A stretch of DNA of 64,000 nt from Bacillota bacterium (GTDB taxonomy: Bacteria > Bacillota > Clostridia > Lachnospirales > Lachnospiraceae): NCBI GenBank assembly GCA_023386315.1, contig JAEWJZ010000008.1, forward strand, positions 144,348 to 208,347. Direction: 5' to 3'. Below are positions 6,234 to 61,878 of this stretch, piece after piece. The number at the start of each line of letters is the position of its first letter. The stretch's first letter is position 1. Below the pieces are notes generated by a model, which worked only from the letters and a program-made list of their open reading frames with translations, was not told where the DNA came from and ran no database searches. A program made the translations under genes and the position numbers.

Positions 6234-6430
6234 TTAATCAATTAATAATTCATCTGCAGTAACAAACGTATAACCCTGTTTGGTTAATACATCAATCGCC
6301 TCCAGCGCAGCTTCTACAGATGTAGGGAATACATCGTGAAGAAGTATGATATCACCAGGCTCCACATGTTTTACTATGTGGCGGACGATTTTTTTTGTAT
6401 TCTGGGTCTTCCAGTCCAGTGTATCCACAT
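6234..6430 (-). pseudogene. C-terminal part of split polysaccharide deacetylase
   Basis: In frame from 6430 the minus strand reads ...VDTLDWKTQNTKKIV... and then IILLHDV near the end, stopping at 6234. These are motifs 4 (DxxDW) and 5 (LLHD) of a NodB-type polysaccharide deacetylase, but nothing N-terminal is present: upstream in the same frame comes YFPALCN and a TAG stop. The missing N-terminal part is at 61312-61878 on the same strand and stops at exactly the same codons. Joining the two at the shared GTATCCACAT gives LWDVDTLDWK in frame and a protein of about 239 residues. It has no start of its own here and is probably silent while the element is integrated. Confidence 0.85.
6421..6430. 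other. Left attachment-site core (GTATCCACAT)
   Basis: The ten bases GTATCCACAT recur exactly at 61346-61355. Left of this copy is deacetylase coding sequence (chromosome side); right of it TTGCATA (6430-6436) and TGGAAAAT (6441-6448) form one arm of the element's dyad. The partner arm lies left of the other copy. The likely crossover dinucleotide, by symmetry, is TC at 6424-6425. Confidence 0.85.
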
Positions 6431-6523
6431 TGCATAAAGCTGGAAAATACTACTTCCTTTCCGTCACTCTTTAACAGCAGAACAGTAGAATTTGTTAAAT
6501 TTTTGTCGACATATTTTGTCGTA

Positions 6524-6537
6524 TTTTGTCGACAAAA
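6524..6537. promoter_or_regulatory. Perfect 14-bp palindrome with upstream direct repeats
   Basis: TTTTGTCGACAAAA at 6524-6537 is a perfect palindrome. TTTTGTCG also occurs at 6501-6508 and 6514-6521, giving three copies at 13- and 10-bp steps. It lies 115 bp before the chemoreceptor gene and 95 bp inside the left end of the element, so it may be an operator or a recombination accessory site. No assigned regulator. Confidence 0.5.
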
Positions 6538-6652
6538 GTTTTTTGATTTTCAAATAATTTCGTTTACATTTTTGTATAAATATAATAAAATTTATCCATA
6601 ATTGGTTTTTTTATTGTTATATTTTACCCCACAATACGAAAAGGAGAAAAAT

Positions 6653-8650
6653 ATGAATAACAACAAATTACAAAAAGTGACATCAATTAAAAGAAAGATA
6701 CGGTTTATGATCATGGTAATGGTTTCTGCATCACTTATCTTTGTAGGTTTTTTAACATGTTTGCTCAACTTTTCGTCAACAATCTATATCTTGAAAAATA
6801 ATTTAAAAACAACTGCCGCTGCGGCAGCCGGTCAGGTAGAATATCGTCTGAAATCCACATTAAATATCGTAGAAACATTAGGCACCGTAAAAGAGTTATC
6901 AGTAGATACAATGCCAATTACCGAGAAGTTGGAAATATTAGAACATTACAAAAAATCATATAACTGGAGCCAGGTCTATTTATTTGATAAAGAGGGAGTT
7001 AGTCTTGCAAATAAAGAGTTAAACGTTTGTGACAGACAATACTTCATATCTGCACTTGCTGGTAAATCAAATATCAGCGATCCGATTTACAGCAGAGACT
7101 CCGGAGAATATGTGTGTGCTGTTGCGGCTCCAATCTGGAAGGACGGTATCCAGAATACAGAAGTCATCGGTGCAGTTATGGTATGTATGGATGTAAGCTC
7201 TCTCAATACTCTGGTTTCTTCCATAAATGTCAGTAAGAATGGATATGCCTACATCACCGACAGCAAGGGAACGATGATTGCACATCCAAACAATGAATTA
7301 ATTAAAAACCAGACTAATTACATAGAAGAATCTAAAAAAGACCCCCAGTATGCATCTTTGGCAGCAGTGCTGAAAGAAATGATTTCCGGAAAAAATGGTT
7401 TTGGATCTTACAAATATCAAGGACAGAATAAATATCTTGCTTATGCCCCAATAGGAGAAACCAACGGCTGGAGTATTGCAATCAGTGCCCCCGTCAATGA
7501 TTTTTTAAGTGGAACGGTCCAGAGTATCGCCACGACCATTGCAGTGATTGTACTGGCTCTTATCATAAGCTTTCTATCCGCTGCTAAATTGGCAAATGCC
7601 ATTGGGAAACCGATTCAGATCTGTACAACCCGGCTACAGAAGCTGGCAGAAGGGGATTTCCACAGTATCGTTGCAGACATTAAGACCAATGATGAGACAA
7701 TGCTGTTGACTCAGTCAGCAAAAATGTTAACAAGTTCACTTCAATCTATCATTGAAGATATAAAATATCTTCTTGGAGAAATGGCAAGAGGAAATTTCTC
7801 AGCAAGGCCTCAGATACCAGAAAGCGCCTATGTGGGTGATATGCATGAAATTTATACATCCATCACCTATATGAGCAATAATATAACAAATACGTTACAT
7901 CAGATTGATATTGCCTCCAGTCAGGTAACCTCTGGAGTAGAACAACTGGCGGCAAGCGCAACCGGACTGGCTCAGGGGGCTACCGAACAGGCCTCTTCCG
8001 TGGAGGAACTTGCAGCATCTTTTGATGAAATTTCTTCACGGACAAAACTAAATACCTCCAATGCAACAGCTTCAGAAAAGTACATGTCAGATCTGGGGGA
8101 AAAAATTAAATTCAGCAACGATCAGATGAATAGTCTGATTTCTGCAATGAAGGAAATAAATACCACCTCTGCTGAGATAGGAAAAATAATAAAAGTGATA
8201 GAAGAAATTGCTTTCCAGACAAATATTCTGGCCCTGAATGCTGCGGTAGAAGCTGCACGCGCGGGAAGCGTCGGCAAGGGCTTTGCCGTTGTTGCAGATG
8301 AGGTAAGAAGTCTGGCCGCCAAATCCAGTCAGGCCGCCAGCAGTACAACTGCACTGATAGAACGATCCATTCTCGCGGTAGAAGAAGGGTCACGTATGGT
8401 TGATGAAACAGGTTTATCATTAAAGGAAGTTGTGGAAAAAACTGAAATCGCAGTAAGAAGTATGAGAGAAATAATTTCAGCTACAGAACAGGAAAATGAT
8501 GCAATCAACCAAATGCTCATAGGTGTCGATCAAATTTCCAATGTTGTGCAGTCTAATTCTGCTGCAGCAGAAGAAAGTGCTGCTACAGCAGAAGAATTAT
8601 CTGCACAGGCTGTGTCATTAAAATCACTGGTCGGATCATTTAAATTTTAA
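6653..8650 (+). CDS. Methyl-accepting chemotaxis protein with dCache-like sensor
   Basis: This 665-residue chemoreceptor signals ligand binding to the CheA/CheW array. It has an N-terminal membrane helix (about 20-42), an extracellular sensor of roughly 250 residues of Cache type (VYLFDKEGVSLANK, DRQYFISAL, AYAPIGETNGWSIAI), a second helix near 300-320, a HAMP segment and a cytoplasmic signalling domain with the hairpin tip ending IAFQTNILALNAAVEAARAG. The ATG at 6653 is chosen for AAAAGGAGAAAAAT directly before it; an upstream in-frame ATG at 6602 lacks this. It is the first gene inside the element. Its ligand is unknown; such sensors often detect amino acids or organic acids. Confidence 0.9.
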   Translation: MNNNKLQKVTSIKRKIRFMIMVMVSASLIFVGFLTCLLNFSSTIYILKNNLKTTAAAAAGQVEYRLKSTLNIVETLGTVKELSVDTMPITEKLEILEHYKKSYNWSQVYLFDKEGVSLANKELNVCDRQYFISALAGKSNISDPIYSRDSGEYVCAVAAPIWKDGIQNTEVIGAVMVCMDVSSLNTLVSSINVSKNGYAYITDSKGTMIAHPNNELIKNQTNYIEESKKDPQYASLAAVLKEMISGKNGFGSYKYQGQNKYLAYAPIGETNGWSIAISAPVNDFLSGTVQSIATTIAVIVLALIISFLSAAKLANAIGKPIQICTTRLQKLAEGDFHSIVADIKTNDETMLLTQSAKMLTSSLQSIIEDIKYLLGEMARGNFSARPQIPESAYVGDMHEIYTSITYMSNNITNTLHQIDIASSQVTSGVEQLAASATGLAQGATEQASSVEELAASFDEISSRTKLNTSNATASEKYMSDLGEKIKFSNDQMNSLISAMKEINTTSAEIGKIIKVIEEIAFQTNILALNAAVEAARAGSVGKGFAVVADEVRSLAAKSSQAASSTTALIERSILAVEEGSRMVDETGLSLKEVVEKTEIAVRSMREIISATEQENDAINQMLIGVDQISNVVQSNSAAAEESAATAEELSAQAVSLKSLVGSFKF

Positions 8651-8653
8651 ATA

Positions 8654-60695: not shown

Positions 60696-60724
60696 ATCGG
60701 ATGTATGGTATATTTTATAGATTA

Positions 60725-60775
60725 TGTAAACCTCCGAATTGGTATAAGATAAAATTATCAGTTTGGAGGTTTACA
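60725..60775. terminator. Hairpin between convergent genes
   Basis: TGTAAACCTCC (60725-60735) and GGAGGTTTACA (60765-60775) form a perfect 11-bp stem with a 29-base loop, between the flavodoxin-fold and MreB-like genes. No T-run is present. Confidence 0.5.
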
Positions 60776-60793
60776 TATCAGAATAATCTTATT

Positions 60794-61276
60794 CTATAGC
60801 TTATTAGGTATAATACCGATAACAATACTGTAGTTCTTTGCTAATTCTTTTTTAATATCTTCAAACTCCAGTTTAAAAATATTAACCTTTCTTGCTCCAG
60901 CCGCATAGAACACATCTTGAAATGCTTTTATTTCCACCCCTGTTAATTCAAAAGGGATACATACAGCAACAGTTGGTTTAAAGATTTTATATATTATTCC
61001 TGGAAGAATATTTTTAAAAATCAATTTCACTACTGTGACAGTTTCGAAAAATTCGGCAACTACGTTTCTCTTAAAAGTAGAATAAACAGAAATTTCACCC
61101 ATATCAACACTTTCAATAGCGTCAACATATTGGTATGCTGCTTTCCCAACTGCAATAACTTTATGCGATTCATTTATAGCGATAACTGCATAATCAGAGT
61201 ATGTCTGCATTGACTTTGAAGTATATCCTCGTATTTCAACGGGGGAAAAATCCCCCTCTAATCTTTTAATTCCCAT
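60794..61276 (-). CDS. Truncated MreB/actin-like protein
   Basis: The 160 residues resemble the first half of MreB: YAVIAINESHKVIAVGKAAY at the start, an AIESVDMGEISVYS segment and PTVAVCIPFELTGVEIKAFQ then AAGARKV, aligned to the MreB phosphate-binding region. The second actin half, with the second nucleotide loop, is missing. It cannot be a normal filament protein; it may be a remnant or a specialised short form. AGGTGAAATAGTT precedes the ATG. It is the last gene before the right attachment site. Confidence 0.65.
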   Translation of the reverse strand: MGIKRLEGDFSPVEIRGYTSKSMQTYSDYAVIAINESHKVIAVGKAAYQYVDAIESVDMGEISVYSTFKRNVVAEFFETVTVVKLIFKNILPGIIYKIFKPTVAVCIPFELTGVEIKAFQDVFYAAGARKVNIFKLEFEDIKKELAKNYSIVIGIIPNKL

Positions 61277-61311
61277 AACTATTTCACCTGCCGTTTTTAT
61301 TTAAGGACATT

Positions 61312-61878
61312 TTACTCATTTCTAAATTTTCCATCTCTATGCAACGTATCCACATCCCACAGTACCACCGTCATATTGGTTGTGCACTCCAGTTCCTCAT
61401 TCCACGACCCATAGGGCGGCCGAAGGTACTGGGGCCGTACTCCCGTAATAGCCTCTATCTGGCGGTTATTTTCCTCAATCTGTTCGCAGGCATTGGACAC
61501 AGCCTCCTTATTCATCTGTACGTGACTGTAGCCATGGTTTCCGATGAGGTGCCCATCCTCCTGCATCTGCTTCACAATTGCTTCCTTGCCTATCACATTT
61601 TTTCCCAGAAGAAAAAAGGTAGCATGGACACCCCGTTTGCGAAGACCGTCTAAAAGCATGGGTGTATAAATGGAATGAGGTCCGTCGTCAAATGTCAGTG
61701 CAATCTGTTTATCACCGGAAAACTGTTTCCGAACCTCTTCCTTTGCCTCTCCTCCGGCATCTGCCGGCAAAAACAACGTATTTTTCGCCTCAATGTAATT
61801 ATAATACAATGCCCCTGCAAAGGCAATATCCAGTACAATGACTGCCAACAGACAGGCCAATTTCCATCTTATTTTCAT
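61312..61878 (-). pseudogene. N-terminal part of split polysaccharide deacetylase
   Basis: The frame codes for 188 residues: a membrane helix (about 6-28) and NodB motifs TFDDGP (62-67), HGYSH (115-119) and RPPYG (153-157). It then reads LWDVDT and goes wrong: LHRDGKFRNE and a stop supplied by the element. The continuation LDWKTQNTKK with motif 5 is at 6234-6430. A full gene joined at GTATCCACAT gives about 239 residues and all five motifs. Start at 61878 (an earlier TTG 61914 is possible). It may be a PdaA-like cortex or cell-wall deacetylase; which is not known. As integrated it should lack activity. Confidence 0.85.
61346..61355. other. Right attachment-site core (GTATCCACAT)
   Basis: Second copy of GTATCCACAT. 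To its left, inside the element, ATTTTCCA (61326-61333) and TATGCAA (61338-61344) form the second arm of the dyad. To its right CCCACAGTACC is deacetylase coding sequence. By symmetry the crossover dinucleotide is TC at 61349-61350. Confidence 0.85.

Follow-up and report, generated by a model that had tools for sequence, protein, structure and literature searches.

The sources drawn on here, as excerpted, describe gene-intervening elements of spore-forming bacteria in a few genes, sigK, spsM, gerE and yabG, together with the vfbin case. The skin element of sigK (Bacillus subtilis; skinCd in C. difficile) splits its gene in frame and carries a large serine recombinase and a small directionality factor, and its mother-cell excision is governed by sigma-E and SpoIIID (PMC5025042). 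SP-beta lies in spsM, an envelope-polysaccharide gene, at an inverted-repeat attachment (att) site, and the gene is rejoined in the mother cell (PMC4191935). The gin element in gerE of B. cereus is without phage genes, encodes a serine recombinase function and a small factor, and has a 9-bp core inside an imperfect inverted repeat (PMC5595907); yin in yabG of C. botulinum coexists in split and circular forms in one culture (PMC10747680). Here we describe a 64,000-nt stretch of contig JAEWJZ010000008.1 (Lachnospiraceae; assembly GCA_023386315.1), hereafter the window, to which all positions refer unless a contig is named, in which a 54.9-kb island interrupts the gene for a predicted cell-wall deacetylase of the NodB family. 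The island is likely excised by its own recombinase, probably in the sporulating mother cell, which would rejoin two halves kept by selection into a working gene.

The window contains just two exact copies of the 10-bp core GTATCCACAT, one at each end of the island and 54,925 bp apart; 100 shuffles averaged 0.13 copies and never reached two. The 5' part of the deacetylase gene, which begins with the ATG at 61878 (the list of open reading frames (ORFs) instead opens this frame at a TTG at 61914), matches Pfam Polysacc_deac_1 at 5e-35, carries NodB motifs 1-3, and runs into the island directly after LWDVDT. Joining the outer sides gives a single open frame of 239 residues, ...VVLWDVDTLDWKTQ..., and orthologues covering residues 1-239 at 77-81% identity are found uninterrupted in 15 of 25 related genomes, so precise excision would rejoin a coding gene in frame. 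An earlier reading of the sequence alone had proposed one deacetylase gene split at a common 10-bp site by a single site-specific insertion, with a full-length joined product. The junctions lie where it placed them, the joined frame is full-length, and the uninterrupted gene of the relatives bears out the insertion, which we regard as certain.

The 25 genomes searched belong to the genus of G004, and the joined protein, searched against reference genomes, hit 34 loci, the named ones from Lacrimispora, Clostridium sp., Hungatella sp. and metagenome-assembled genomes. The remaining 10 of the 25 genomes have the deacetylase split in the same way (in G002 the 5' half alone was found), and the split is thus not peculiar to the source genome. 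The pattern that the sequence-only reading had named as speaking against an insertion, both fragments and no intact gene, does appear within the split set, where none of the ten genomes has an intact orthologue, but in the other 15 the gene is intact. That reading had also expected the intact gene of relatives to lie between genes of the rarA/HMA side and a cytidylate-kinase-like gene. Among the 11 of the 15 intact loci that were tested, all from the reference-genome scan, an rplL orthologue (window 63612-63983) lies on the 5' side in 11, and a rarA orthologue (window 2942-4276) on the 3' side in five. Four of the six loci without rarA (L003, L004, L007 and L008) stop 0.7-1.3 kb past the gene, and the other two (L002 and L006) lack it even though their 3' flanks extend for 10 kb; in L002, a cytidylate-kinase-like gene (63%) stands immediately before the intact deacetylase. 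A gene with an HMA domain adjoins the 3' half in nine of ten split genomes and sits elsewhere in all seven intact genomes that have it, so that the 3' flank has also been rearranged. In the window this gene (5747-6106) and a cellulase-like gene recognized by eye (4543-5661) lie between the 3' half and rarA. At codon 178, in the core, 13 of the 15 intact genes (G011-G025) read DP rather than DT. Most intact lineages thus lack the attachment site's GATAC, which is present in G012 and G021.

Six other islands (22-48 kb; 34 kb in L. defluvii) were compared and found collinear with that of the window, and the synonymous divergence (dS) of recombinase, single-strand binding protein (SSB) and cargo is about equal to that of host genes. 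Recombinase dS follows host dS with rho 0.78 for a kinase and 0.90 for the 5' half across 45 pairs, which share species and are not independent; measured from the window within the main clade, dS is 0.75-1.0 for the recombinase and 0.41-0.95 for the 5' half. The recombinase itself has a ratio of nonsynonymous to synonymous divergence (dN/dS) of 0.087. Island and host have therefore diverged together over a long time. In a tree of 92 deacetylase rows computed from residues 1-176, a single clade (Shimodaira-Hasegawa-like approximate likelihood ratio test, SH-aLRT, 94) unites 16 split rows, and nine further split rows are scattered among intact ones, requiring eight changes, seven of them forced by starred branches. 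It used P0001-P0066 of 682 matches (120 listed), with P0040, P0057 and P0066 dropped where the junction motif was not found; metagenome proteins were scored as split from length and tail, so that a few may be cuts at contig ends. The tree points to a single old insertion, with several more at that site.

Both halves look maintained. Within the split set, dN/dS has a median of 0.062 in the 5' half (11 sequences, maximum 0.098) and of 0.021 in the 3' half (10 sequences, maximum 0.095), against 0.070 and 0.046 for the same halves of intact genes; these medians omit pairs with dS <=0.05 or saturated (1/55, 1/45, 51/105 and 60/105, respectively). Third positions account for 104 of 155 variable sites in the 5' half and 36 of 42 in the 3' half, and no split-set sequence of either half contains a stop. 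By these measures the gene looks alive, with both halves under purifying selection while apart. That an ordinary island simply landed in a dispensable gene whose halves have yet to decay seems very improbable to us. The nine split rows outside the main clade, scattered as they are, may be recent, and one recombinase (G010) is frameshifted, as such an account would allow; within the main clade, island and host have similar dS, yet the halves are stop-free with dN/dS near 0.06 and 0.02, and a dead gene is already hard to hold there.

The conservation of both fragments could also mean that they are produced separately, as a two-piece enzyme or two peptides, and the 3' half has possible starts in the window (a GTG at the core), in G001 (three) and in G007 (one). 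In seven of ten cases, however, no in-frame ATG, GTG or TTG lies upstream of the first host codon, which makes separate production unlikely, and no conserved promoter of the 3' part was seen, although no search was dedicated to one. We give this explanation hardly any credence. A 3' fragment that mostly cannot be started and nonetheless keeps its protein sequence is best explained by rejoining, and we regard retention of the split gene for use once rejoined as well supported.

When the two inner ends of the island are brought together as a circle junction, they form a dyad with 19/25 matches centred in the core, and 0 of 5000 shuffles were as good. All ten islands for which both ends are available share one best dyad centre, which on the gene strand is the GA of GGATAC; the number of equally good shuffles ran from 0 (window, G001 and G005) to 112/2000 (G007). 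Phage serine recombinases use attP sites with symmetry around the central dinucleotide (PMC5595907, as excerpted), and crossover at this GA is predicted here. It would restore LWDVDTLDWK in nine of the ten cases with both halves, the window included, and LWNMDTLDWK in G010, and the T/A difference that most islands show between their two cores would go to the circle rather than to the gene. The island has both a large serine recombinase gene and a short core inside a dyad. A terminal-inverted-repeat transposon that duplicates a 10-bp target was considered and rejected: the two arms together make up one dyad whose centre is in the core, and many lineages are split at this very site, which site-specific recombination explains better. 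A search of IMG/VR with the circle-junction pattern gave one match, L173, a chance match within a phage gene.

The sequence-only reading had named no enzyme for the insertion; the likely one lies in mid-island and is the sole large serine recombinase that the island encodes. Its orthologues in the split genomes are 85-97% identical over the main matched piece, the copy in G007 being interrupted by contig ends. None of the 15 intact genomes has a recombinase above 75%, and only G023 and G024 have one at 74-75%, which lies about 1 Mb from the intact deacetylase; one search behind these counts covered 17 genomes (10 split and 7 intact). The best NCBIfam match of the enzyme is XisF of the fdxN element, an element of heterocyst development, at 1.9e-35 and 122.7 bits, below the cut-off of 375, and it matches the solved structure of YokA at 2e-7, a distant relation. 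It found no relative in a scan of IMG/VR, and eight plasmid records gave only short matches to parts of the SSB or the recombinase. A conserved 56-aa protein encoded just before the recombinase, with no match in Pfam or among solved structures, is a candidate recombination directionality factor. Related recombinases (73-75%) occur at L093 3-11827, L103 8577-10269 and L104 8940-10632, each with a similar small protein just upstream; that of L093 adjoins a large surface protein with SpaA repeats, in which a cell-wall anchor is weakly matched.

A conserved non-coding block before the small gene and the recombinase suggests when they might be expressed. It reads ATA-N16-CATAAAT in 8 of 11 islands, and ATA-N15/16-CATA stands before spoIVA in 24/24 and before spoIIID in 25/25 cases in the group, compared with 3.1% of random 120-mers; both genes are present in all ten split genomes. 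In C. difficile, the sigma-E site of spoIIID is ATA-N16-CATATATA, and three polysaccharide deacetylases are sigma-E-controlled (PMC3789822, as excerpted). From the form of this block, sigma-E may drive expression of the recombinase. The word TGAAACAAG in the block resembles a SpoIIID site (8/9 letters of KRTAACARK; PMC5025042, as excerpted) and was given no weight, since one strand of the window has 108 equally good places. The deacetylase has its own conserved promoter-like site, with a -35 at constant distance that is TTATT in 19/26 genes and GTATT or GTAAT in the remainder, and the enzyme may act on the spore or mother-cell wall.

These elements suggest a sequence of events in which the island, having integrated at one site with its own recombinase, would be lost in the mother cell only. 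Sigma-E would switch on the recombinase there, the 56-aa candidate factor might steer it, and excision would restore the full deacetylase frame, keeping the gene useful. Excision would probably occur during sporulation, judging by the promoter form, the enzyme class and analogy to skin, SP-beta, gin and yin.

Assemblies offer a suggestive sign that excision happens. In L. defluvii (G009), the host contig on the 5' side ends ...GGGATGTGGATAC and that on the 3' side begins GGATACACTGG, both stopping at the core, and the island forms its own 34,189-bp contig, which ends ...CCAATGAGGATAC, starts 15 nt within the host half and has 21 nt in common with the 5' host contig; the 5' contig of G002 terminates at the same base as the 5' host contig of L. 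defluvii. Host contigs that stop at a branch point are what an assembler would be expected to produce if joined and split forms were both among the reads, and these ends point, suggestively only, to both forms in the DNA. They are silent on which cells were sequenced, and would also suit low-frequency excision and re-integration in growing cells, whether as a reversible switch or because the island is still mobile, with the joined gene used there and sporulation uninvolved. The nine scattered split rows, which suggest continuing mobility at the site, and a deacetylase that scores as PgdA-like as well as PdaB-like are in keeping with that alternative. It is harder to square with the sigma-E-type motif before the recombinase in most islands and with a clade in which 16/16 rows are split and the joined form is absent among the matches listed, and we consider it unlikely.

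Several observations weigh against programmed excision in the mother cell. Eight of the ten split assemblies show the integrated form alone, with the host running into the island at the ends found, and among the matches listed (120 of 682) none is a joined protein above 83% identity. The promoter-like block has CATG and not CATA in the window and G001 and is 2 bp short in G010, and ATATT-N14-CATRNA occurs four times in the window against 0.84 expected, so that the sigma-E pattern is not rare window-wide. The -10 of the deacetylase is mother-cell-like, but ATA is at the -35 in 0/26 genes; the protein is below the cut-off for every sporulation family (PdaB 158.8 vs 237.4; PdaA also below), and PgdA models score it equally well or better. 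In G010, an L. amygdalina isolate, the recombinase (contig C54, 546223-547694) is frameshifted within a short G run, through either real decay or a sequencing error, yet the gene halves are conserved; a second copy at 73% lies on contig C81. For G002, dS from the window is higher for the recombinase (0.75) than for host genes (0.22 and 0.41), and descent may not be purely vertical. The recombinase also lies in mid-island rather than at an end; in G010 and G009, which are without the microcompartment block, its distance from the 5' end is about 2 kb and about 9 kb, respectively, and its central place may come from one-sided gain of cargo.

The cargo consists of chemoreceptors, metabolic enzymes, acetyltransferases, an RND efflux pair and a microcompartment locus (Table 1). 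The last encodes an MtnK-type kinase, an MtnA-type protein, a class II aldolase, an aldehyde dehydrogenase and, recognized by eye, a sugar-type ABC transporter, and looks like a locus for catabolism of the 5-deoxyribose or methylthioribose type. The sequence-only reading had counted this locus as cargo; it does lie inside the island in some split genomes, but it is optional, the kinase being found in 6/10 split genomes (95-97%) and in 9/15 intact ones (86-88%). In the intact genome G020, 1.5 Mb separate the kinase from the deacetylase, and the kinase is absent from G001, the 5' half of which is the same as that of the window in the region compared. No phage structural or conjugation genes were found in the 52 of 58 listed island ORFs that were scanned (48 with Pfam, partly at 1e-10, and 4 with NCBIfam), and ten island proteins compared with PHROGs matched integrase/invertase, SSB and dCTP deaminase families only. 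By gene content, the island appears to fit neither a prophage nor an integrative conjugative element. An MreB-like protein of 160 aa (60794-61276), roughly half as long as the MreB model, is unmatched in the six other islands.

Table 1. Features of the deacetylase locus and its island, in window coordinates.
Feature	Position	Strand	Basis
Inserted island	6431..61345		Intact gene in 15/25 relatives; collinear islands in 6/6 compared
Deacetylase, 5' part	61312..61878	-	Residues 1-178 of joined protein plus tail read from island
Deacetylase, 3' part	6234..6428	-	VDTLDWK to stop
10-bp core, island end adjoining 3' part	6421..6430		Exact-copy search
10-bp core, island end adjoining 5' part	61346..61355		Exact-copy search
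Inner arm of dyad att site (approximate)	6431..6452		19/25 dyad matches in circle junction
Inner arm of dyad att site, other end (approximate)	61324..61345		Circle-junction dyad
Large serine recombinase, 492 aa	34050..35528	-	Pfam Resolvase, Recombinase, Zn_ribbon_recom; orthologue in 10/10 split genomes
Conserved 56-aa protein, candidate directionality factor	35538..35708	-	Conservation
Conserved promoter-like block	35727..35754	-	ATA-N16-CATG here; ATA-N16-CATA in 8/11 islands
360-aa protein of unknown family, conserved island core	35796..36878	-	Pfam scan and island comparison
Single-strand binding protein, conserved island core	36844..37299	-	Pfam scan and island comparison
Conserved promoter-like site of deacetylase	61912..61943	-	CATAG[AG]TT in 26/26 split and intact genes
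Microcompartment locus with MtnK/MtnA-type and aldolase genes (cargo)	38051..56879	-	Pfam/NCBIfam, island comparison
RND efflux pair and TetR-type regulator (cargo)	28918..33953		Pfam, island comparison

A more specific proposal, to which we give slightly less than an even chance, is a domesticated switch of Clostridia, in which the germline of a Lacrimispora clade would keep a broken deacetylase and the mother cell would discard a non-phage metabolic island of 22-55 kb, bearing an entire microcompartment in some members, under sigma-E, making the enzyme once and at the right time. The island would add to the gene-intervening elements a deacetylase gene, a clade with the split in all 16 rows, and a large metabolic island that looks neither prophage-like nor conjugative; in the open PMC literature, a coverage that leaves out most subscription papers, our searches listed no report of an element like this in the gene for a deacetylase. 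The split clade, the scattered insertions at the same site, the intact relatives and a lineage with a broken recombinase form a comparative series in which the path from mobile element to tamed switch can be traced, and they caution that a gene split by an island is not necessarily dead.

Among the systems introduced at the outset, as their excerpted sources describe them, the island shares with skin the in-frame split and the large serine recombinase inside, and would share the small factor and the mother-cell control; skin is prophage-like and interrupts a sigma-factor gene, whereas here the target is a deacetylase gene, the element is a metabolic island and excision is predicted from sequence. 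SP-beta likewise sits in an envelope-polysaccharide gene, at an att site that is also an inverted repeat, but it is an active phage, and its recombinase YokA is only distantly related to that of the island. Like this island, yin is clostridial; it differs in being prophage-like and confined to one strain, whereas the split described here runs through a clade. The site of gin, also an element without phage genes, resembles that of the island in its short core and imperfect symmetry; gin has three recombinase genes, another target and, in the source as excerpted, no large metabolic cargo described.

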